In this document: positions 5,019 to 36,808 of the stretch, piece by piece
How the letters are laid out: every line of letters begins with the position of its first letter
Position numbering within the stretch: the first letter of the stretch is position 1
NCBI GenBank assembly: GCA_018897105.1
Contig: JAHILF010000147.1
Span: forward strand, 1-44,436
Reading direction: 5' to 3'
Source: Pseudomonadota bacterium
GTDB taxonomy: Bacteria > Desulfobacterota > Desulfobulbia > Desulfobulbales > SURF-16
DNA length: 44,436 nt
The notes under the pieces: model-generated
Database searches by the model: none
The model's input: the letters and a program-made list of their open reading frames with translations, nothing else
Told to the model about the DNA's origin: nothing
Translations under genes and position numbers: made by a program

Positions 5019-7127
5019 ATGTCCGCAAACAAATTTGACATAGCTGCCTATTGCAAACGCATGGAAAAAATCATCGGCGGGCAAGACGGCAAAGCCTCTC
5101 TGTTCTGGAAAGCCTTATCCTTTTCCGTTGATGCCCACCAGAACCAGAAGAGGAAATCCGGCGAGGCCTATGTCAGCCACCCCTGTCAGGTGGCGTTGAT
5201 TTTGGTTGACGAACTGGGCGTCAAGGACCCTGTTACCCTGGCAGCCGCCATGCTGCACGATACCATAGAAGATGTGCCGGAGGTGACCTCCGAGGTCATC
5301 AGCTCCATCTTCGGCAAACATGTGGCGGAAATTGTGGATGGCTGCACGAAAATCAGCCATTTTGCCGGTGATCGCCAGACTTTTTATAAACTGGTGCACC
5401 GCAAAATTTTTTCAGGCGCCGCCTCCCGGGTGGAGATTATGCTGATCAAGCTGGCCGACCGGCTGCATAATCTTCGCACCATGGACTCCATGCCAAAACA
5501 TAAACGGCAGAAAATCGCGGACGAAACATTAAGTGTGTACGCGCCCATGGCCGGAGTCATGGGCCTTTTTGGCTTAAAACGCGAATTATACGACCTGGCT
5601 CTTGCCCATAAATTCCCCCGCCAAAGCCAGAAGGTCAAGTCCCTGATATCCCATCTCGAAAGCCGGGAGGAGGCCTTAAGCATCCTGAAAACCTTACGGG
5701 AGGCTTTTGAAGAGGCGTGGATATCAGCGGACATCAGGCTCAAGGCAAAAGGACTCTGGGCCTATTATGATTTCGCCAAGAATATCCTGGTCAAACAAAT
5801 TGAAAATCCGCTTGAAATCATCATTGTTGTTGAGGATCTGCAAACCTGCTACCGGGCGCTTGGCATCATCAATCAACATTTTCCGCCCATTCCCCGCACC
5901 ATCCGCGACTTTATCGCCAATCCCAAGCCCACCGGCTACCAGAGCATGCACGCCAGAGCCAACATCAGGGGACAAAATTATCTTTTTAAAATCAGAACCC
6001 TGCAAATGGTCAACGATGCCAAGAGGGGCATTATCAGGGAATGGCTTTCCTCCGGCACAATCCCTTCCAGTTTTGAACAGGACATCCGGGAAATGTTCGG
6101 AATTCTGGGTACCGATGATGCGATCTCTTACCGGGAGATGATAGCCGCCAGCGGCAAAAAAGAAATATACACGTACACGCCGAAGGGGAAACGCATCTGT
6201 CTGCCAAGCCAGAGTATCGTCCTTGATTTCGCCTTTAAGGTGCATACAGAGGTTGGACTTCATTGCCAATCTGCCAAAGTCGGCTCCAAAATTGTCCCGC
6301 CGTCCCATGTGATAAGGGATGGGGACCGGATCAAAATTATCACCCAGGAAAAACTGGTAAAATTTGACCCGGATATCATCCGTCTCTGCCAGACGCCGCG
6401 GGCACGATCTGAACTGTCCAGAGTCTTTCGTTTAAAACGGGAAGCGTTGGCCATTGAAATCGGCCAGTCCCTCATCTGGCAGGAGCTGAAACGTTATGGG
6501 GTGCCCTTGGCCATATTGGAATCAGACGAAACCACCCATATTCTGGAATATTTCGGTAAAAACACGATTGAAGAGCTCTATCAGGATGTGGGACAGGGCC
6601 AGCTTCGCCTTAAAGAGCTTATTTATGAGATCAAAAACGGTCTTTATGCCGGCAAACAAACTCTGCAGCCGCCTACCGGCGCCTTAAACAGCATCGAGCT
6701 TGACACCCTGGACCAGGACAGGGTCAAATTTTCCCAATGCTGCCATCCTCTGCCCATTGAAAAAGGCCTGCTGGGCTTGCTCAGCGAACGAGGTCTCTCC
6801 ATCCACAAAAAGGAATGCCCTAAGCTGAATACCTTAAAGTTGCAGCGGGAAGATGTTGTTGCTGTCCGCTGGCACTTAAAAAATACCAGGGTGGAAAAAC
6901 CACAGACCCTGCTGATATTTAAGAATGTGCCCAGGAACCGTATCTTTATGCTGCTCAGCGTTGCCCCGGTTGCCATGAAAATCGATGAAGTCATCGCTCT
7001 GTCCAAACGGCCGGACGTGACTGCCTGGGAAATCAATTTTGAGGTGGAAACCCTCCAAGGACTGAAAAATATCCTGCAGCACTTCTCTAAGAGCAAACTC
7101 GAATATGAATTTGTTCTTGACCAGTAA
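5019..7127 (+). CDS. RelA/SpoT family protein, hydrolase site intact, synthetase site degenerate
   Basis: 702 residues with the full long-RSH layout: HD hydrolase (about 25-190), synthetase-like domain (about 225-345), TGS (about 385-445), conserved Cys-Cys region (about 575) and C-terminal ACT-like region. Hydrolase residues are present: RKSGEAYVSH (His54), HDTIED (80-85) and KLADRLHN (Asp147). The synthetase domain keeps the fold-like CYRALGI and KPTGYQSMH but departs from the catalytic consensus: the usual YD-[VI]-A-R segment reads NPLEII (263-268), RFKD reads TIRD (294-297) and EIQIRT reads LFKIRT (322-327). I infer a (p)ppGpp hydrolase lacking synthetase activity. Transcribed alone, ending 12 bp from the convergent Crp-like gene. 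Confidence 0.9.
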   Translation: MSANKFDIAAYCKRMEKIIGGQDGKASLFWKALSFSVDAHQNQKRKSGEAYVSHPCQVALILVDELGVKDPVTLAAAMLHDTIEDVPEVTSEVISSIFGKHVAEIVDGCTKISHFAGDRQTFYKLVHRKIFSGAASRVEIMLIKLADRLHNLRTMDSMPKHKRQKIADETLSVYAPMAGVMGLFGLKRELYDLALAHKFPRQSQKVKSLISHLESREEALSILKTLREAFEEAWISADIRLKAKGLWAYYDFAKNILVKQIENPLEIIIVVEDLQTCYRALGIINQHFPPIPRTIRDFIANPKPTGYQSMHARANIRGQNYLFKIRTLQMVNDAKRGIIREWLSSGTIPSSFEQDIREMFGILGTDDAISYREMIAASGKKEIYTYTPKGKRICLPSQSIVLDFAFKVHTEVGLHCQSAKVGSKIVPPSHVIRDGDRIKIITQEKLVKFDPDIIRLCQTPRARSELSRVFRLKREALAIEIGQSLIWQELKRYGVPLAILESDETTHILEYFGKNTIEELYQDVGQGQLRLKELIYEIKNGLYAGKQTLQPPTGALNSIELDTLDQDRVKFSQCCHPLPIEKGLLGLLSERGLSIHKKECPKLNTLKLQREDVVAVRWHLKNTRVEKPQTLLIFKNVPRNRIFMLLSVAPVAMKIDEVIALSKRPDVTAWEINFEVETLQGLKNILQHFSKSKLEYEFVLDQ

Positions 7128-8686: not shown

Positions 8687-9250
8687 ATGTCAATATTAGA
8701 TGCTGTTATTATCATAACCATCGTTATCTTTTTAGCCCGGGGAATCTGGATAGGCTTCGTCAGACAGATTGCCTCCATAGCAGCCCTTATTATCGGCTTT
8801 GTCGTGGCAGGTCGCTTTTACGGTGAATCGGCAAATTTTGTCATTCCCTTTATCAACAACCAGCAAGCCGGTTTCTTTATCGCCTACATCTTCCTCTTTG
8901 TAGTCGCTTTTGCCACAGTGATTCTGCTCGGCTTCATTTGCAAGAAAATCATGTCCATCTCTCTTCTCGGCTGGTTTGATAGATTATTAGGTGCCCTTCT
9001 GGGACTTGCCAAAGGATCTTTTGTCTCCTGCCTTCTTTTTATGGGTCTTGCCCTCTTTATCTCCGGCTCAAGCCCAATTTTTTGCCAGTCCTTTTTCTTT
9101 CCATATCTGGAAAATGGTTCCAAGATCATTCTTTCTATTGTCAAAGACAAGGAACTTCGTGACAATCTGCTGCCTAAGCAACCGGCCATATCATCATTTA
9201 TGGACAACACCATAGATTTTGGCAAGAAAATCAAGAGGCAAGCCGAGTAA
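8687..9250 (+). CDS. CvpA family inner-membrane protein
   Basis: 187 residues with four predicted membrane segments (about 3-20, 25-45, 63-85, 103-125) and the CvpA pattern LDAVIIITIVIFLARGIWIGFVRQ followed by GWFDRLLGALLGLAKG. CvpA proteins are needed for colicin V production or envelope stress tolerance in enterics; the molecular role is unsettled. The open frame continues upstream, but ATG 8687 is the family-typical start because the extra upstream residues are antisense to the transferase gene. Its 3' end overlaps the convergent glycosyltransferase by 57 bp. Confidence 0.88.
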   Translation: MSILDAVIIITIVIFLARGIWIGFVRQIASIAALIIGFVVAGRFYGESANFVIPFINNQQAGFFIAYIFLFVVAFATVILLGFICKKIMSISLLGWFDRLLGALLGLAKGSFVSCLLFMGLALFISGSSPIFCQSFFFPYLENGSKIILSIVKDKELRDNLLPKQPAISSFMDNTIDFGKKIKRQAE

Positions 9251-9898
9251 CCCCCCCCCGATCATCAATTGATTGATGAGTGTCGTGCGAATCACCCCCA
9301 ACCGCAGCCAGCGCCGTGCCGAGGTGGTCACCTGCTGATCCAGGATATGAATGCGTCCTTGCCTTCTTAATAACTGCACCAGGTAAAAATCTTCCATCAC
9401 CGGCACTTCCGGGAAGCCTCCCAACTCCCGGAAAAGAGCAGCGCGCAGAAAAATGGCCTGATCGCCGTAAGGAAATTGCAAGAATCGTGACCGCAGATTC
9501 GCTGCTCCGGCAACCCATTTTAATCTTTTTTGCGGTGAATCAATGGCAAGCCTGAATGCTCCTGCCACGATGTGCCGCTGTGCCATGGTTATCCGCACAT
9601 AACGGGCATATTCATGGGGTAATCGTGTATCGCCGTGCAAAAAAAGAAAAACTTCACCCTGCGCCTCTGACGCCCCTCTGTTCAACTGCCTTGCCCGACC
9701 AGGAGGTGACAACACAACCTTTGCCCCGGCATTACGAGCAAGCACCACGGTATCATCCCCGCTTCCGCCGTCAACGACCACTTTCTCTACATAATCATCA
9801 CCTTCTGTTGAGTGAAGAGTTTCTTTGATGTATTTGGCCTCATTCAGTGCAGGGATGATAATGGATAGATAAGGTGTGCTCCGGGAATAATTTTTCAT
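9194..9898 (-). CDS. TIGR04283-type glycosyltransferase family 2 protein (arsenosugar-type)
   Basis: 234 residues, GT-A fold. It begins with LSIIIPALNEAKYI, then DGGSGDDT, HGDTRLP (DXD equivalent), YGDQAIF, VMEDFYL and a C-terminal TSARRW. This set marks the family named TIGR04283, originally linked to arsenosugar biosynthesis loci; the actual substrate is unproven. The start overlaps the stop of its TIGR04282 partner (ATGA), the usual pairing of these families. The codons for residues GGG near the C-terminus fall in a run of nine C on the plus strand (9251-9259), a slippage-prone tract close to the convergent cvpA stop. Confidence 0.87.
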   Translation of the reverse strand: MKNYSRSTPYLSIIIPALNEAKYIKETLHSTEGDDYVEKVVVDGGSGDDTVVLARNAGAKVVLSPPGRARQLNRGASEAQGEVFLFLHGDTRLPHEYARYVRITMAQRHIVAGAFRLAIDSPQKRLKWVAGAANLRSRFLQFPYGDQAIFLRAALFRELGGFPEVPVMEDFYLVQLLRRQGRIHILDQQVTTSARRWLRLGVIRTTLINQLMIGGGLLGLPLDFLAKIYGVVHK

Positions 9899-10551
9899 TC
9901 GCTGCTTGTAGGAAAATGTAAGGCGAAGCTGGAACCGTCAAGGTTTTGCAGATCCTCGGGACGGTCTATATCGGCAAGTGTTGGCAAAAGAGCAAGGGCT
10001 AATCCTCTTTTTCTTGCAATTTCAATTGTTTGCGAAAGAACATTTTCGGTTCCCCAGTCAATATCCGCCCACAGCAAATGATCAGCTTTACTTAAACCGA
10101 TGAGATAATAGCCGCCGTCATACGCCGGTCCGAGGACAAGATCATTTTTCTGCAGCAGATCAAACCCGTATGCGAGAATTTCCGGAGTGAGAAATGGACA
10201 GTCTGATCCGACTATGATAACGTGTTCCATGCCTGCGTTAAAGCTGCTGGCAAAGGAATGGGCCAATCGTTCTCCCAGGCTGCCCTTACTTTGCGGCAGA
10301 CAGATCATCGACGACGGAATCCATCTCTGCAACTCCTGCTCATTACCGCCTTCGTAATGAACGGCAATTGACAGATTTCTTTTATTGGCCAGTTCACAGC
10401 ACTGGGCAAAGGTATATTCTGCCATCATTCTCTGGAGATCGGCAGCCCCCGTCATACCCAAGGCAGGTATCAATCTTGTTTTTGTCTGACCCGGTTTCGG
10501 AAACCTGGTGAACACAATAAGAATCTCTCTGATCAAATCGGCCTGTGCCAT
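9895..10551 (-). CDS. TIGR04282-type (DUF2064) glycosyltransferase/nucleotidyltransferase
   Basis: 218 residues of the DUF2064/TIGR04282 family, a GT-A-like nucleotide-sugar fold. Visible motifs: FTRFPKPGQTKTRL (N-terminal nucleotide-binding loop), VGSDCPFL (metal-binding Asp), LGPAYDGGYYLIGL and TLADIDRPEDL. Members occur next to TIGR04283 proteins and, in some genomes, next to ArsM/ArsS arsenosugar genes, but many hosts lack those, so the role is only suggested. It is the first gene of the two-gene minus-strand unit. Confidence 0.87.
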   Translation of the reverse strand: MAQADLIREILIVFTRFPKPGQTKTRLIPALGMTGAADLQRMMAEYTFAQCCELANKRNLSIAVHYEGGNEQELQRWIPSSMICLPQSKGSLGERLAHSFASSFNAGMEHVIIVGSDCPFLTPEILAYGFDLLQKNDLVLGPAYDGGYYLIGLSKADHLLWADIDWGTENVLSQTIEIARKRGLALALLPTLADIDRPEDLQNLDGSSFALHFPTSSE

Positions 10552-11555: not shown

Positions 11556-14500
11556 TTACTGAACCGAGCCAAACTGTGCAGCTATTTCCTCAAGAGGCAA
11601 ACTTGACACTCCATTGATATAATTAATTAAATCATTTCCATCTATATCGTTATCATGATCATCATCGGCCGTCAACCCGCCAATCGTTTTCTCCAGAGTA
11701 CCAAGTGCGATAAAACCAACATTTTCTCCCAAATGACTTGTATCGTTATCAACCGATTTTTCTTCATCGACTCTCAGTTGCACCCCTGTTGCCGTCAAAA
11801 GCTCATAGCGTAAACTTGCCGGATCATCATCCTCCGCTGTCTGCATACCCGCCAACATGACCGGTGACAAGCCAAACAGGGTATTAAAATTAATGCCAAG
11901 CCATTGATCGGTCACGGCCTGTTCAGTTTTTCGTACTTCATAAACAAGATCACCCAATGTACCGGCTGATGGCTCCCAGGCAACATAACTTATCGTTTCC
12001 TGCTGGTGGAACGGCTCACTGCTGCTGCTTTGTTCCTGCAGCTTGTATTCAAATCCTGTTGCGGTTACATTACGTACTCTTCCCGTTACGGCACTGCTTT
12101 CATTAGCCGTGTTTACTGAGGTGAATACCACTGGGGCTGTGCTGAACTGACGCGCAAAAGCTGTTTGTGCAAAACCTTGTGTGTTGGCAGTTGTAAAGGT
12201 TCCCGCCTCCACTCTTGCTCCGTTTTCTAGCACATAACTGCCTGATTCCATGGCAATATAACCGATATTTTCATTTGCGTGCTCGGCAATCTGTTGATAT
12301 TCCCAGTTCTGGAAGCGAATATTAAAGCCTGTGCGCTGCACATCGACGATGCGTATCACCCCTGCAGTTTTATCGTTATCACTGGCCGGTTCGGCGACAA
12401 CAATAGGATTTTCTATCGGCTCTGAGAATTCAACCCATTGCCAATCTCCACCCACGCTTACTTCACCCGTTTCCATGATAAATGGAGGTACAGTTACCTC
12501 TATATCCACTACCTTCTTTGCCGTCTCGCCATTGTTATCTAAAACAATTAATGTAACTGAATAGACACCACTGATGAGGAATCGGTGTTGGGTTAATGCT
12601 CCGGCAGCAATTTCTCCATCACCGAAGTTCCATGAGTAGGTGACAATTTCTCCATCCGGGTCATCCGATCCTGTTCCATCAAATATCCATTGCGCTGAAT
12701 TATCCGGGGAAACGGTTGCGACAAATGCTGCCACAGGCGGCATATTTTCAATATCTCCTATTATCGTTATACTCGCAACATCCTGGGAGACTGCTCCACT
12801 GTTATCTGTTACAATAAGTGACACGGTGTATTGCCCAATTACCGAATAGGTGTGATTGAATGATGGTCCACTTGCTATGGTTCCATCACCAAAATTCCAT
12901 TGGTAGCTGACAATTTCACCGTCAGGATCGCTTGATGACATTCCGCTTAATTCTGCTGTATATGGGGAATCAGCTGGCACCTGATATTGAATGACCGCCA
13001 CCGGAGGCAAGTTTGCTGGCTTTTCATCTATCATGACCGACACAGTTGCCAGATTTGACTCATAATTACCGTCACTTGCCTGGAAGGTGAAGCTGTCCGC
13101 CCCTAACGCATTGGTATTTGGTAAGTAAACAAATTCACCTGTGGCTGCATTCGTTATAACCGCAGATCCCAAGCTCCCATTGCTGGTTATTGAATAAGTT
13201 AAGGAATCACCATCAGGATCTGTAGCGCTGAGTGTTCCACCGGCGGAATTCCCCTGTGTTGTTTCTAAACTGCCATTTGTCGCCACTGGCGGGTTATTGC
13301 TGATCTGGGCAGTCCAAACTACTTCTGTTGAATAGTCACTTTCGAACGTCTCACTGTCATATGCTGTTGCGGCAAAGTAGTAAGTTTTGCCGAGGGTCAA
13401 CCCTTTGATTGAAGCAGTTGTCTCAGTTTTGGGGACTTCTACAACTTGTGTGTAATTCCTACTCGCCAGCCCATAATGGATCCGATAACCAGCTAGGTTA
13501 GCTTCTGTATTTGCTGTCCAGGTAAATGTTGCAATTGCATTCCCAGCGGTTGTGATATCTATGGTTATGCTTGCTATATTTGAATCTGCTTTGCCGTCAT
13601 TTACCTTAAATGTAAAACTGTCGGAACCGGTTGCCTGCGGATTAGGCGTATAGGTAAATGTTCCACTGGTCGAGTCATTTATTACTGCTGTGCCCAGACT
13701 TCCGTTGCTCGCGATTGCATACGTTAATGGGTCGTTGTCAGCGTCGATTGCCGAGAGCTTGCCAGTGGCGGATATTTCCTCTGTTGTGGTGATGTGCATT
13801 CCTGAAGCTATCGGAACTGCATTAATTTGTTGTATTGTAACAAGAACAGTTGCTATGTTCGAATCTGTTTTGCCGTCATTTACCTTAAAGGTAAAGCTGT
13901 CGGTTCCGATTGCCAGAAGGTTCGGCGTAAAGGTGAATGTTCCTCTGGATGGATCATTTATTATTGCTGTACCCAGGCTACCGTTACTTACGATAGTATA
14001 AATTAGAGGGTCATTATCACCATCCGCAGCTGACAGTTGTCCTCCGATGGTAATACCCATATCAGTCGTTATACTTGCACTTGAAGCGATCGGTGCCGTG
14101 TTGACTACTAACGTATCTATAGTGACTGTGACAACAGCCTCATTTGAGTCAGAGGACCCGTCATTTGCTTTGAAGGAAAAGCTGTCCGTACCTGTTGCCT
14201 GATTGTTCGGAATATAGGTGAATGCACCTGTTGTGGCATTGATTATGACTGCTGATCCTAAATTACCATTGCTTACAATTGAATATGTCAACGTATCGTT
14301 ATCGACATCAATTGCGCTGAAATTTCCTGAAACTGGATTCCCTTCAGTTGTTTGTATAATAGACCCTGTTGCCACAGGTGCAGTGTTGGAATTTTCTGCT
14401 GCAGCCCAAACTACCTCTGTCGAATAGTCGCTCTCAAAATTATCAGCATCATAGGCAGTTGCTGCAAAATAATATGTTATTCCGGGGGCTAAATCAGTTA

Positions 14501-14714
14501 CAGTGGCAGTGGTTTCTGTTTTTGGGACCAAGAGGACACTGTCGTAATTTCTGCTGGTTGTCCCATAATGGATTTTGTAACCAGCCAGATTTGTTTCTGT
14601 GTTCGCGGTCCATGTAAAAGTCGCATCAGCCGCGTACAGATACTCCCATCCTGTAAATAGAAATAATGCCGTAAAGATCAACGCAAGCAACCCTTCCCGC
14701 CGCTGCTTCATCAT
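11556..14714 (-). CDS. Large secreted modular protein (FN3, tandem-95/cadherin-like, PKD, lectin-like, EF-hand-like)
   Basis: 1052 residues from the ATG at 14714, chosen because it gives an immediate signal peptide (MMKQRREGLLALIFTALFLF, cleavage near 29-30); the frame remains open upstream to 14822. Modules: FN3 (about 30-105), three tandem-95/cadherin-like repeats (about 110-200, 206-295, 300-387), a second near-copy of the FN3 (395-470), a fourth cadherin-like repeat (475-565), two PKD domains with WNFGDG (568-652, 658-742), three H-type-lectin-like modules (about 750-1005) and a dockerin/EF-hand-like DHDNDIDGNDL (1019-1029). Likely an extracellular, calcium-dependent adhesive or polysaccharide-binding protein. 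No sortase or autotransporter anchor is visible. Ends in a strong terminator. Confidence 0.85.
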   Translation of the reverse strand: MMKQRREGLLALIFTALFLFTGWEYLYAADATFTWTANTETNLAGYKIHYGTTSRNYDSVLLVPKTETTATVTDLAPGITYYFAATAYDADNFESDYSTEVVWAAAENSNTAPVATGSIIQTTEGNPVSGNFSAIDVDNDTLTYSIVSNGNLGSAVIINATTGAFTYIPNNQATGTDSFSFKANDGSSDSNEAVVTVTIDTLVVNTAPIASSASITTDMGITIGGQLSAADGDNDPLIYTIVSNGSLGTAIINDPSRGTFTFTPNLLAIGTDSFTFKVNDGKTDSNIATVLVTIQQINAVPIASGMHITTTEEISATGKLSAIDADNDPLTYAIASNGSLGTAVINDSTSGTFTYTPNPQATGSDSFTFKVNDGKADSNIASITIDITTAGNAIATFTWTANTEANLAGYRIHYGLASRNYTQVVEVPKTETTASIKGLTLGKTYYFAATAYDSETFESDYSTEVVWTAQISNNPPVATNGSLETTQGNSAGGTLSATDPDGDSLTYSITSNGSLGSAVITNAATGEFVYLPNTNALGADSFTFQASDGNYESNLATVSVMIDEKPANLPPVAVIQYQVPADSPYTAELSGMSSSDPDGEIVSYQWNFGDGTIASGPSFNHTYSVIGQYTVSLIVTDNSGAVSQDVASITIIGDIENMPPVAAFVATVSPDNSAQWIFDGTGSDDPDGEIVTYSWNFGDGEIAAGALTQHRFLISGVYSVTLIVLDNNGETAKKVVDIEVTVPPFIMETGEVSVGGDWQWVEFSEPIENPIVVAEPASDNDKTAGVIRIVDVQRTGFNIRFQNWEYQQIAEHANENIGYIAMESGSYVLENGARVEAGTFTTANTQGFAQTAFARQFSTAPVVFTSVNTANESSAVTGRVRNVTATGFEYKLQEQSSSSEPFHQQETISYVAWEPSAGTLGDLVYEVRKTEQAVTDQWLGINFNTLFGLSPVMLAGMQTAEDDDPASLRYELLTATGVQLRVDEEKSVDNDTSHLGENVGFIALGTLEKTIGGLTADDDHDNDIDGNDLINYINGVSSLPLEEIAAQFGSVQ

Positions 14715-14858
14715 GTGGCATTTTTTGTTGTCTCCATGTAATATTTTTGTTGCCGCATGGGAGATCAGACAATTAAAAGGATTGCTTCCGGCTTTCTTAT
14801 TTTCTATTGGTTGTGTTCGCATAAGTGTTACTTTATTGGCCTTTTGCTTCCTTTGGCC

Positions 14859-32867: not shown

Positions 32868-33692
32868 TTATTTCTGGCAGTTGGGACAGAAGAAGGTGCT
32901 TCGGCCGCCGATTACCAGCCGCTCAATGGTGGCTGAACAGCGAGTGCACCCCTGCCCTGCCCGCCCATAAACCGTTAATTCCAGCTGAAAGTATCCTTTC
33001 TGGCCGGAACTGTTGACAAAATCGCTGATGGAACTGCCGCCGCAGGCAATGGCGCGCAGTAAGACCTCCCTGGTCTTTTCGGCCACCGTATTCCACCTGG
33101 GCAGGGTCAGGAAACCAATGGGCTTAGCCGGGTGAATGCCGGCATGAAAAAGGATCTCATTGGCGTAGATATTGCCGATGCCCGCCACCATATGGTTATC
33201 CATGAGAAAATTCTTCACCGGCTGCAGCCGGCTGCCGGCCATTTTTTTCAGGTAGCGACCGGAGAAATCCTTTTCCAGCGGCTCACAGCCCATATCCCTG
33301 AACGGATCATTGTCTCGGAACTGTTCCGGGGTCAGCACCCGGATAATGCCGAAACGCCGAATATCGTTGTAGCGCATCTGCATCCCGTCCCGCAGTCTGA
33401 ACACCACATGATCGTGCAGGGCCGGCGGGGCCGCGGCAGGGAAAATACCGAGTTTGCCGGTCATGCCCAGATGAACGATCATGGCCGCGCCGCTCTCCAG
33501 CAGAAAAATAAGATATTTGCCCCGACGCTTAATGGCGCTGATCCTGCCGCCCTTGAGCCAGCGTTCAAGATCTTTTTGCGGGATGTCCATCCGCAGTTTT
33601 TTGGCCGAGCAGGCAATGGAGACAATCTCCCGGTCAACCACATGGGGTATGAGCCCCTGGCGGATAACCTCAACCTCAGGAAGTTCAGGCAT
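32868..33692 (-). CDS. mutM: Formamidopyrimidine-DNA glycosylase
   Basis: 274 residues from ATG 33692. The mature enzyme begins MPELPEVEVI, where Pro1 after Met removal is the catalytic nucleophile and Glu2 assists. GKYLIFLLESG carries the beta-Lys, and the C-terminal zinc finger CTRCSATIERL...FCPNCQ closes the protein. It excises 8-oxoguanine and FaPy. The open frame continues upstream through the neighbouring fusion gene, but those residues are not part of the family. It starts 2 bp downstream of the fusion gene stop, suggesting co-transcription. Confidence 0.95.
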   Translation of the reverse strand: MPELPEVEVIRQGLIPHVVDREIVSIACSAKKLRMDIPQKDLERWLKGGRISAIKRRGKYLIFLLESGAAMIVHLGMTGKLGIFPAAAPPALHDHVVFRLRDGMQMRYNDIRRFGIIRVLTPEQFRDNDPFRDMGCEPLEKDFSGRYLKKMAGSRLQPVKNFLMDNHMVAGIGNIYANEILFHAGIHPAKPIGFLTLPRWNTVAEKTREVLLRAIACGGSSISDFVNSSGQKGYFQLELTVYGRAGQGCTRCSATIERLVIGGRSTFFCPNCQK

Positions 33693-33694
33693 GG

Positions 33695-36600
33695 TCAGAT
33701 CACCAGGGCAAGCGACTGCACGGTTGCCGCATTCTGATCCCGCTGTTCCCAGAGCATGCAGGCCTGGCGGATACACTCGCGGTTCAGGGCATACTGGCTG
33801 CAGGCCAGGGAATCTGCGGCCAGCAGGGGGACCGGCAGAATTTCTGCTGATAAGTCCGCCGCCTCCTGCAGGGCGATCATCGTCTCCCGCTGGCAGCAGC
33901 GGCCGGCCTGAAAACAGGCGATTTTTTCCAGAATCCTGGCCGTAACCTGCTGGGCCATCTGCCGCTTTTTCGGGGTCAGGGGCGTTGCCCCAAGAATGAC
34001 GGAAAAGGCGATGCCCGCCCCAACCGCCGCGCCGCAGCTGCCCCAGAAACCGCACACCCCGCCCGGCACCTTGCTGCCGCGCTCAATAGCCGCCAGGATA
34101 TCCTTGTTGCCCACCTTGCCCCCCCGGGCCCGGTAGGTGGAGAGAATGATGCCCGGCACCAGGGCATGATGCTCCGGGCCATGCATGGAGATGGCCGGCA
34201 GGGATCTGATTTTTTTCATCAGCGTCACCATGTCTTCGATGGCCGATTCCGTGCAGATCTTTCTGATCACCGCCACCCCCTTATGCTGGTGACAGGCATC
34301 GCAGACAAAATGGCCGCCCAGGCAGGAGGCATTGGCTGCTTTCTTCTCGCCGCAGTAATAACAGGCCTTTTCCCGTTCAGTGGTGAAATAACGCAACTCG
34401 CTGCCGCACACCAGGCAGTCGGCATGTTGCCGTTTTTTTTCGCTGGGTGCCGGGCAGCAGGACAAATCAGCCGATGAGGCAGTCTCAGGCGGCACGCCGC
34501 AGCAGCCTCCCGTTTGGGCAATATTGGTCACCGCGCCGTTGGCATCAACTACAAAGACGGAATCATCAAGTGCCTCAATATCGCTCAGGGCGACTCTGGT
34601 TTTTTTGCCTTTGAGCAGCAGCTCGCCGCTTTCCGTGTAAACCGCGGCAAACGGGCCGCGATAGATGGCATCAACCATCTCTTGGGCCGCAGGCTTGCAG
34701 ACGGCAAAGGTCAGAGAATAAAAGGAGGTGGCGTCCAGCTGCCGATAGGGAAACCGCTTGACCAGTTTCATGGCGGTAAAGCCTGTGGCCTGAAGCATGG
34801 CCATGAGGTCCACCTGCTGCATGGCCCCGCCCAGACATTCACCCCGCAGTTTCGCATTATTTTTGATGTGGACCGGAATCGGCTCATCGGTGACGATATC
34901 GGAGACCACAAGCCTGCCGCCGGGCCGTAAAATACGGAAGGCCTCATGCAGGGTCCGCCGCTTGTCAGGGCTCAGATTAATCACACAGTTGGAAATCACC
35001 ACGTCGGCCGCGCCGTCTGGCAGCGGGAGGGCCTCCAGAAAGCCCTTTTTGAACTCCATATTGTCATAGCCGAGCTCCCGGGCGACCTGTTCCTGGGATG
35101 ATCGGGCCAGGCTCAGCATCTCATCGGTCATATCAATGCCATAGACCTGCCCCGTCTCCCCCACCATCCTGGCTGCCTGGAAACACTCCACCCCGCTGCC
35201 GCTGCCCAGATCCACCAGGGTTTCCCCCGGCTGCAGCCCCGCATCCTGCACCGGGCTGCCGCAGCCGTAGGAACGCTGCCGGGAAACGGTGGGAATAAAC
35301 AGCGCCTCGGCCTGCTGGGGGGCAAAGGGGTTGACAATATCCTCATTGGCCAGGGTGGCGGCCCGGGCATAAAACTCCCGCACCGTGCCATGACCGCCGT
35401 CCGCTGCCAGGGAAACGACGCAGTTGCAGTGGGTCAGCGCCACCCCCTGCTCACCGTCGGCGCAGTCATAACGGACATCGCCCATTTTCAACAGAAAAGC
35501 CGTGCCGTCCGCCTGGGGGTAGCTGCCGGCCTGGCGGCCAATGAGCCAGAGGGCAATGCGGTTATAAAGGGGAACATAGGGATCATGGCCCGTGAATTTC
35601 CCGGCGGCAACATAACTGTGATCGATATCCCCGCCGCCCACCAGAAAGCGCAGAGCGTTCCGCTCATAGGCGCTGCCCGCCAGGGTGGCGGCGCGCAAAT
35701 CCTGCAGCACAGGGCTGGTGCGCCACCCCTGTTCAAGGCCCTGATCAAGAGAACCGCAGCAAAGCGCCGCGATGCCCACCAGGGCCGGCGAGGGATAGAT
35801 ATTGCCGTCAGGCCCCACGGTCAGTGATTCCCAACCGCTGTTGCTTAAATCATGACGGGTGCCCGGGGTGGAAAATACCTGGCCTTTGATGGTCTCCACA
35901 TTATCAATGGCTACGCCCTTTTCCTCGGCGATTTCCAGGCAGCCCGCCAGATGCATCCAGATTTCCTCGGGCGGCACAAACTGCTCGTCACTGCCCTTGC
36001 CCCGGACAAAATGCCAGAGCAGATGCATATTGCCGATACCCTGCTCAGCCGCAAAACCGATCATGGCTGGCAGATCATGAATATTTTCCCGATTGACGGC
36101 AACGGAGAGGGTGGCGGTGAGCCGCGTCTGCCGCAGGGCAATGAGATTGGCCAGCAGCCGGGCAAAGGTCCCCTTGCCCCGCAGGGCGTCATGGCTCTCT
36201 TCCATGCCGTCCAGGCTGATCTGCAGATGCAGGCGCTCGGCCGGGACGCGCTGCAGGAAATCGATATTTGCCGCGAGCAGCAGGCCGTTGGTCAAAATCA
36301 CGGCATGGACTTCCCGGTCCTCAAGCAGATTTTGAATGATTTCCGAAAATTGCGGGTAGACAAATGGTTCTCCGCCGGTAAAATAAAAAAGCGTGCAGCC
36401 CAGCGTCCTGGCCTGGGCGATGCCTTTTTCAAGCTGCTTGCGGCTGAGTGAACTGGACTGGGCCGGAGAAGCGGAAAAAAGACAGTGCCGGCAGGCGAGA
36501 TTGCACTGATTGGTCAGATGAAACCAGCATTCTTTTAATGAGGAGAGGGTAAGAAAATTTTCCCGGCCAGGGTAGGCCTCGGTCCCCGAATTTGCCAGAT

Positions 36601-36808
36601 GGGAAAAAATAAGGGCCCGGTCAAGCACGTCTTCACCAGCCCCAGATACCCAGGACCCATGATCGGGGGATGGAAAATCATCCGTCATGGCCCGCTGCAA
36701 CAGGTTATCAGCCTTGATGCCGGCCACAAACCAGTCCGGCTTCTGCGCATTAATGTAAATCGCCAGTCCGTTGCTTGCAAACCTCTGCCAGTATTTTAAT
36801 GATTGCAT
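33695..36808 (-). CDS. Fusion of radical SAM, ArsM-type arsenite methyltransferase and Cys-rich DUF5714-like domains
   Basis: 1037 residues in one frame. N-terminal region (1-85) followed by a radical SAM core with CNLACRHC (Cys102, 106, 109), TGGEPF (144-149), ISLDG and a SPASM-like spacer region. A second block (about 460-705) is a SAM methyltransferase with LVDLGSGSG (531-539) and all three positions of the ArsM cysteine set: SYGCGSP (Cys516), SNCVINLS (Cys608) and GECLGG (Cys658). The C-terminal block (about 765-1020) is cysteine-rich (CC at 769-770 and 784-785, CLVC, CYYC, CDAC) and matches my recollection of DUF5714. Product probably modifies arsenic or another thiophilic substrate; not established. 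It precedes mutM and diverges from rph. Confidence 0.8.
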   Translation of the reverse strand: MQSLKYWQRFASNGLAIYINAQKPDWFVAGIKADNLLQRAMTDDFPSPDHGSWVSGAGEDVLDRALIFSHLANSGTEAYPGRENFLTLSSLKECWFHLTNQCNLACRHCLFSASPAQSSSLSRKQLEKGIAQARTLGCTLFYFTGGEPFVYPQFSEIIQNLLEDREVHAVILTNGLLLAANIDFLQRVPAERLHLQISLDGMEESHDALRGKGTFARLLANLIALRQTRLTATLSVAVNRENIHDLPAMIGFAAEQGIGNMHLLWHFVRGKGSDEQFVPPEEIWMHLAGCLEIAEEKGVAIDNVETIKGQVFSTPGTRHDLSNSGWESLTVGPDGNIYPSPALVGIAALCCGSLDQGLEQGWRTSPVLQDLRAATLAGSAYERNALRFLVGGGDIDHSYVAAGKFTGHDPYVPLYNRIALWLIGRQAGSYPQADGTAFLLKMGDVRYDCADGEQGVALTHCNCVVSLAADGGHGTVREFYARAATLANEDIVNPFAPQQAEALFIPTVSRQRSYGCGSPVQDAGLQPGETLVDLGSGSGVECFQAARMVGETGQVYGIDMTDEMLSLARSSQEQVARELGYDNMEFKKGFLEALPLPDGAADVVISNCVINLSPDKRRTLHEAFRILRPGGRLVVSDIVTDEPIPVHIKNNAKLRGECLGGAMQQVDLMAMLQATGFTAMKLVKRFPYRQLDATSFYSLTFAVCKPAAQEMVDAIYRGPFAAVYTESGELLLKGKKTRVALSDIEALDDSVFVVDANGAVTNIAQTGGCCGVPPETASSADLSCCPAPSEKKRQHADCLVCGSELRYFTTEREKACYYCGEKKAANASCLGGHFVCDACHQHKGVAVIRKICTESAIEDMVTLMKKIRSLPAISMHGPEHHALVPGIILSTYRARGGKVGNKDILAAIERGSKVPGGVCGFWGSCGAAVGAGIAFSVILGATPLTPKKRQMAQQVTARILEKIACFQAGRCCQRETMIALQEAADLSAEILPVPLLAADSLACSQYALNRECIRQACMLWEQRDQNAATVQSLALVI

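Follow-up and report, generated by a model that had tools for sequence, protein, structure and literature searches.

A conserved single chain of radical SAM, ArsM-type methyltransferase and DUF5714 domains as a candidate replacement for the ArsM and ArsS pair

What chemistry is served when a radical S-adenosylmethionine (SAM) enzyme and an arsenic methyltransferase are joined in one polypeptide? The question is raised by a gene at positions 33695-36808 of contig JAHILF010000147.1 (assembly GCA_018897105.1, a Desulfobulbales bacterium), a stretch of 44,436 nucleotides that was analysed as a whole and is called the window below. A first reading, made from the sequence alone, described this gene as a fusion of a radical SAM enzyme, an ArsM-type methyltransferase and a cysteine-rich domain. 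In the available part of PMC8552651, ArsM is described as carrying out up to three methylations of As(III), with ArsS as its partner in the first arsenosugar steps, and the available part of PMC12159101 reports that arsenic is adenosylated by a radical SAM enzyme in arsenosugar synthesis. We propose, with a probability of about 0.7, that the fusion replaces, in one chain, the ArsM and ArsS pair that starts arsenosugar biosynthesis.

The gene is a single frame of 1037 codons plus stop, as the sequence-only reading had described it; it lies on the minus strand, running from 36808 to 33695, and the plus-strand reading of the same interval is broken by stop codons. The encoded domains follow one another as an RRE/PqqD-like part, Radical_SAM, a SPASM-like region, a cysteine linker, the ArsM-type methyltransferase with its extension, a Cys/His ribbon and DUF5714:

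33695..36808, minus strand: whole fusion gene, 1037 amino acids, ATG start, TGA stop
36584..36796, minus strand: predicted RRE/PqqD-like N-terminal part, residues 5-75, three strands then helices in the AlphaFold2 model
36053..36517, minus strand: radical SAM core, residues 98-252, CxxxCxxC at 102-109, TGGEP at 144-148
35489..35857, minus strand: SPASM-like region, residues 318-440, usual cysteines gone, invariant WES, PSPAL and GGxDxDHS motifs
35420..35464, minus strand: cysteine linker, residues 449-463, C449 and HCNC at 460-463
34688..35329, minus strand: ArsM-type methyltransferase, residues 494-707, C516, C608 and C658
34499..34687, minus strand: ArsM C-terminal extension, residues 708-770, CC at 769-770; tblastn alignments to several ArsM-type genes reach this end
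34289..34417, minus strand: Cys/His-rich ribbon, residues 798-840, common to four solo DUF5714 proteins
33752..34267, minus strand: DUF5714, residues 848-1019, Pfam PF18978

The AlphaFold2 model of the protein reached a mean predicted local distance difference test (pLDDT) of 84.0 and a predicted template modelling score (pTM) of 0.69; hence the folds of the single domains are more trustworthy than their mutual placement.

A collection of 84,980 species genomes was scanned with two exact peptide patterns, which found 122 relatives, of which 80 were kept. These 80 loci are mostly of Desulfobulbales type (Desulfurivibrio, Desulfocapsa, Electrothrix and unnamed deltaproteobacteria), and the outliers, as labelled, are two Atribacterota and one Eisenbacteria. 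The whole protein was found in one open frame in 73 of the 80 loci (the others being L063, L082, L097, L106, L107, L108 and L109), which rules out a sequencing frameshift joining two genes, the artefact that the sequence-only reading had kept in mind. An alignment of 47 sequences was made from the window protein, 45 of the 73 loci with the whole protein and L107, which is nearly complete; its 46 relatives are 44-84% identical to the window protein, and C102, C106, C109, C516, C608 and C658 are each present in 47/47. The third-position GC of three stretches of the fusion gene (0.66, 0.72 and 0.75) is within the range of four neighbouring genes (0.59-0.77), so nothing points to a recent join.

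The radical SAM and methyltransferase domains occur in one frame in 46/97 related genomes, with fragments in 6 more. This set of 46 is distinct from the 46 fusion genomes tested for ArsS below; 31 genomes are common to both. In a sample of 296 genomes drawn evenly from the phylum the fusion was found in 25, spread over 15 families; among these 25, one holds a fragment only (G054), two have DUF5714 in a separate frame (G037, G227), one has it on another contig (G251), and the matches of three (G024, G101, G166) cross one stop codon. The fusion is far beyond chance and is a conserved protein. No description of it was found in the open-access literature searched, outside which most subscription journals lie.

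The methyltransferase half retains the features expected of an arsenic enzyme. Pfam Methyltransf_31 matches residues 527-675 at 114.3 bits, and the three cysteines picked out in the sequence-only reading stand in the motifs YGCG (C516), SNCVINL (C608) and GECLGGA (C658). Counted from an alignment with CmArsM and CrArsM, they line up with CmArsM C72, C174 and C224, which we take to be its arsenic ligands. The modelled domain superposes on CmArsM (4fr0) with a Z of 27.6 and a root-mean-square deviation (rmsd) of 1.8 Å over 213 residues. At the end of the extension C769 is kept in 45 and C770 in 46 of the 47 aligned sequences. The score against the ArsM family PRK11873/NF008823, 233.4 bits, is under the curated cut-off of 263; a solo ArsM that adjoins a true ArsS (L192) likewise falls under it, at 238 bits.

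In the methyltransferase tree the fusion formed a clade of its own (23 rows, 97/99), which includes the Atribacterota and Eisenbacteria members, and the ArsM proteins of ars operons formed another (25 rows, 93/98), which holds 6 of 8 plasmid ArsM-type proteins. The tree did not resolve the Staphylococcus plasmid protein, the cyanobacterial arsenosugar ArsM or the join of the two clades; its outgroup was not clean, the intended row L164 being the same gene as L128, and the outgroup branches were very long. For the possibility that the methyltransferase lies outside the ArsM clade, raised in the sequence-only reading, the outcome is intermediate: the fusion stands apart from the ars-operon clade, the tree does not settle how the two clades join, and all three arsenic cysteines are kept. 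A plasmid search matched 363 records, none of them across more than 80% of the fusion protein.

Of the 46 genomes with a single-frame fusion among the 97 relatives listed, at least 16, the window's genome (G000) included, also have a separate ArsM-like gene without a stop. On contig C24 of that genome a further methyltransferase match (L128, ~6091-6804, minus strand) contains an in-frame TGA, as do other TGA-bearing ArsM relatives listed.

The radical SAM half is of a different origin from the one suggested at first. Its CxxxCxxC, CNLACRHC, was correctly located at 102-109 and is kept in 47/47, the TGGEP motif is invariant in the same alignment, and Pfam Radical_SAM matches residues 98-252 at 70.7 bits. 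The ArsS-type identity that the sequence-only reading had considered was not confirmed: identity to cyanobacterial ArsS is 25% and extends across 179 core residues only, no TIGR04167 (ArsS) match at E<=1e-30 is present throughout the window's genome, and the ArsS rows split off at 100/100 in the radical SAM tree. These three results rule it out. The predicted fold of residues 5-430 is nearest to that of the sactipeptide maturase CteB (5wgg; Z 30.6, rmsd 3.6 Å, 402 residues in the VIA alignment); by sequence, the first 93 residues of the window protein have no Pfam match at E<=1. With an ArsS origin excluded, this half is best read, from the modelled fold, as derived from an RRE-rSAM-SPASM peptide-maturase-like scaffold (rSAM, radical SAM). 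In the SPASM-like region C351 is the sole conserved cysteine (45/47). In the linker C449 and C463 are present in 47/47 and C461 in 45/47; its HCNC is matched by HCSC in a second fusion type, L114, described below. The radical SAM tree leaves three non-ArsS fusion types unseparated from one another, so that a single fusion event and several are not told apart.

The loss of the SPASM cysteines could be taken to mean that the radical SAM half is a remnant or has a regulatory role, and that the protein serves plain arsenic detoxification by methylation. This is very improbable given the complete conservation of CxxxCxxC and TGGEP; moreover, the separate stop-free ArsM-like gene of at least 16 genomes would make a second plain ArsM redundant there.

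If the fusion replaces the ArsM and ArsS pair, its distribution relative to ArsS is informative, and the two were not found together in any genome searched. Among the 296 phylum genomes the fusion occurs in 25 and ArsS in 91, with both in 0 vs 7.7 expected (Fisher p 1.3e-4, kinship ignored). In a second, hand-picked set of 80 genomes TIGR04167 was found in 0/46 with the window-type fusion and in 0/4 with other non-ArsS rSAM-ArsM fusions (G108, G414, G418, G419), and it was found in 12/14 with a solo ArsM of the sister group and in 8/16 others. It was found in 0/50 further fusion-locus genomes, which may overlap with the earlier sets and of which three are outside the phylum as labelled. Families f45 and f53 and genus g139 hold both states, in different genomes: in g139 the fusion occurs without ArsS in G257, and ArsS without a fusion match at 1e-60 in G295, each beside a VTT gene.

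A further line of evidence is provided by genes named for arsenosugar biosynthesis. The window holds two of them, on the same strand as the fusion and 23.8 kb away:

9194..9898, minus strand: TIGR04283 arsenosugar biosynthesis glycosyltransferase, 235.9 bits, cut-off 182
9895..10551, minus strand: TIGR04282 arsenosugar biosynthesis glycosyltransferase, 209.3 bits, cut-off 134, overlapping the TIGR04283 gene by 4 bases

In other members both genes are found close to the fusion, and all the glycosyltransferases in the following four loci score above their family cut-offs. The gene order in L208 (G160) is TIGR04283, TIGR04282, fusion, VTT (TVP38-type), MerA-like; in L206 (G257), VTT (TVP38-type), MerA-like, a 239-residue protein, TIGR04282 and TIGR04283 run divergently from the fusion; in L124 (G227) a split fusion follows a VTT gene, TIGR04282 and TIGR04283; and in the Atribacterota locus L107 the upstream side has TIGR04283 and TIGR04282 at 3-4 kb, and the downstream side a MerA-like gene. 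The TIGR04283 gene is 60 bases from the fusion in G376 and 80 bases in G342. It lies within 25 kb in 11/46 fusion genomes vs ~0.7 expected, and within 4 kb in 5, although the distance is measurable only in the 16/46 that have both genes on one contig. Above its cut-off, TIGR04283 was found in 42/46 fusion genomes and 18/20 ArsS genomes.

ArsS itself is found in similar company. The genes of the solo methyltransferases nearest to the fusion share 4 bases with a true ArsS gene in G422 and G423. The L192 set (G408) consists of a PHO4-family phosphate transporter, arsM, arsS, a MerA-like oxidoreductase and a VTT-domain protein, and a cyanobacterial plasmid carries annotated arsM, arsS, TVP38/TMEM64 and mercuric reductase genes, much like that set.

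These results support the proposal of the sequence-only reading that an ArsM-type methylation is paired with a radical SAM step directed at arsenic, in view of the arsenic cysteines, the ArsM fold, the exclusion with ArsS and the arsenosugar-type clusters. From the domains, the cysteines, that exclusion and the gene clusters we infer the substrate, the sequence of the steps, the transferred group and the role of DUF5714. In the proposed scheme As(III) would be bound through C516, C608 and C658 of the ArsM half and methylated there, presumably yielding dimethylarsenite. A group taken from SAM, most likely 5'-deoxyadenosyl as with ArsS, would then be attached to the arsenic by the radical SAM half, and the TIGR04282 and TIGR04283 glycosyltransferases would act at a later step. 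The arsenic intermediate may be channelled between methylation and the radical step, as the sequence-only reading proposed. The new arsenical suggested earlier is less likely than an ordinary arsenosugar precursor, because the glycosyltransferases named for that pathway accompany the fusion.

The product could also be of another class. The enzyme might act on arsenic through another kind of radical step, in which a different SAM fragment is transferred, as ArsL does with 3-amino-3-carboxypropyl, or arsenic is coupled to a small molecule or a peptide, and might yield something other than an arsenosugar precursor; this would agree with a radical SAM half that is not ArsS and that resembles CteB in its predicted fold. 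ArsL, itself a radical SAM enzyme of another kind, also pairs with ArsM (PMC8552651). We regard this alternative as unlikely: genomes in which the fusion takes the place of ArsS still carry the TIGR04283 glycosyltransferase, and this points to a product of the same class.

Several observations weigh against the replacement of ArsM and ArsS by the fusion. The 'arsenosugar' names of TIGR04282 and TIGR04283 are NCBI labels only, and the MerA-like genes score under the MerA cut-off. Four of the 46 fusion genomes are short of TIGR04283 (two without it, two below the cut-off), and it is also present in 4/10 genomes with neither ArsS nor fusion. The fusion is flanked in the window by fpg and a divergent rph, which are not arsenic genes. 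An arsenosugar-type neighbour was found by BLAST in only 12/80 loci within the flanks examined, several of them weak (two with a distant PiT-like match only, one with a partial TIGR04283 match far below the cut-off). The exclusion counts overstate independence, as the fusion is concentrated in related families. The chemistry of the radical SAM half may differ, given the lost SPASM cysteines. Finally, DUF5714 is wholly missing in 3/46 fusion genomes (family f15), and is therefore not essential.

No arsenic operon adjoining the fusion was found in the window. The commonest neighbour cluster of the fusion is fpg (24/80 loci), and adjoining genes are mostly housekeeping; for this reason the arsenosugar link was hidden at first, and it was shown by sister and distant members. 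In the window, fpg (mutM; 32868..33692, minus strand) begins 2 bases past the fusion stop codon; it is probably co-transcribed with the fusion and no part of its function. Elsewhere in the window, at 11556-14822 on the minus strand, a 1088-residue protein shows tandem-95 repeats and a partial match to the myxosortase-dependent M36 metallopeptidase, far under the cut-off.

The cysteine-rich C-terminus seen in the sequence-only reading was confirmed, and the Pfam search it called for identified DUF5714 (PF18978) at residues 848-1019 with 200 bits vs a gathering cut-off of 26.2. The ribbon cysteines and C919, C925, C971, C972, C1003, C1012 and C1017 of DUF5714 are present in 47/47. The f15 fusions without this domain are of ~790 residues (L130 3822-6182, L131 3235-5610 and L132 6260-8611, all minus strand), and a PF18978 search of genomes G049, G056, G063 and G069 found none. 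Modelled alone, DUF5714 gave a pLDDT of 86.6 and a pTM of 0.81; among structure matches the best were E 0.79 with Foldseek and Z 4.8 with VIA, none convincing, which is no proof of a new fold. Together with the Cys/His ribbon, DUF5714 probably serves as an accessory domain that binds a metal or arsenic.

A radical SAM gene (TrsS by family score in L121) is followed within a few bases by a solo DUF5714 gene in L120 (6311-8417, minus strand) and L121 (4177-6295, plus strand). A DVU_1553 coenzyme A ligase is nearby, as are a methyltransferase of DVU_1556 type and a molybdopterin aldehyde oxidoreductase, neither of which reaches its family cut-off. With two solo genes beside TrsS-type radical SAM genes and a DVU_1556-type methyltransferase near, the grouping of DUF5714, radical SAM and methyltransferase recurs. 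No recognised arsenic gene was present among the cluster proteins scored, and this, with the RRE-rSAM-SPASM-like predicted fold, would agree with a non-arsenic substrate (selenium, antimony, tellurium, mercury or a Cys-rich peptide), the protein being a RiPP-type (ribosomally synthesized and post-translationally modified peptide) maturase or a metal-cofactor enzyme with an adopted ArsM-like domain. The invariance of the three arsenic cysteines, the arsenosugar-type clusters and the exclusion with ArsS make such a substrate quite improbable.

Other fusions of radical SAM and ArsM domains were encountered. The second type, L114 (5456-7942, minus strand, in G108), is an 828-residue PqqD-rSAM-SPASM-ArsM protein with SPASM-type cysteines and without DUF5714; its PqqD match is at 3.8e-6, and Pfam SPASM scores 21.2 bits, just under the cut-off of 21.5. 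The gene guaA adjoins this fusion in G108 and arsS-arsM in G423, and G108, G422 and G423 are of the same family; between G108 and G423 the ArsM parts are 80% and the GuaA proteins 84% identical. The shared neighbour indicates that a non-ArsS rSAM-ArsM fusion occupies the place of its relative's arsS-arsM pair.

Single-frame fusions of true ArsS with ArsM were also seen in L207 (221-2260, plus strand, 679 residues) and L212 (4796-6802, plus strand, 668 residues), and in the reversed order, ArsM-ArsS, in L213 (3201-5267, plus strand, 688 residues). L207 has TIGR04282 close by, and L213 has both TIGR04282 and TIGR04283 as well as a VTT-domain gene. No description of these three fusions was found. 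In L194 (4272-6050, plus strand), L195 (1864-3669, minus strand) and L196 (3800-5653, plus strand), ArsM is fused in proteins of 593-617 residues to another non-ArsS radical SAM domain, which keeps its C-terminal cysteines; MerA-like genes are near L194 and L196, and ArsS is in none of the three genomes.

On balance we lean towards a wider view, in which a separate lineage of C-As bond-forming radical SAM enzymes arose from an RRE-rSAM-SPASM peptide-maturase scaffold, was fused to ArsM and displaced ArsS in many relatives of sulfate reducers, in cable bacteria (Electrothrix) and in a small number of further phyla. On this view ArsM would have been joined repeatedly to different radical SAM domains that serve one pathway, and DUF5714 would be a new arsenic- or metal-handling domain. 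If this is true, arsenosugar-type arsenic chemistry reaches anaerobic sulfur-cycling bacteria that lack ArsS and seemed unable to make it, the second kind of C-As bond can also be formed on a radical SAM scaffold other than that of ArsS, and these organisms are overlooked in surveys with ArsS as the marker. DUF5714 gains from the fusion a context that can be tested.

Compared with known systems, the fusion shares with ArsM (CmArsM 4fr0, CrArsM 5evj) the fold and the three arsenic cysteines, and differs from it in falling under the PRK11873 cut-off, in forming its own clade and in being part of a longer chain. Like the RRE-rSAM-SPASM peptide maturases (CteB 5wgg, SkfB 6efn) it has their predicted fold over residues 5-430, as matched to CteB, but the window protein lacks the SPASM auxiliary-cluster cysteines, C351 alone being kept. 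With MbdU and the solo DUF5714 proteins (NF045648, PF18978) it has in common the C-terminal ribbon and DUF5714, including the key Cys/His residues of four solo proteins; unlike the MbdU double selenoprotein (NF045648) it has no in-frame TGA, and it scores 124 bits vs a cut-off of 600. The true ArsS-ArsM fusions L207, L212 and L213 likewise place radical SAM and ArsM in one chain, with arsenosugar glycosyltransferase genes near L207 and L213, but their radical SAM domain is ArsS itself, over the TIGR04167 cut-off, and they have no DUF5714 match. Another counterpart is the pair ArsM and ArsS (NF038099 / TIGR04167), in which ArsM-type methylation is likewise coupled with a radical SAM enzyme, VTT/TVP38 and MerA-like genes occur near ArsS examples, and TIGR04282 and TIGR04283 are found in the same genomes; the fusion differs from it in being one chain, in a radical SAM half that is not ArsS, in the additional DUF5714 and in never co-occurring with ArsS in the genomes searched.

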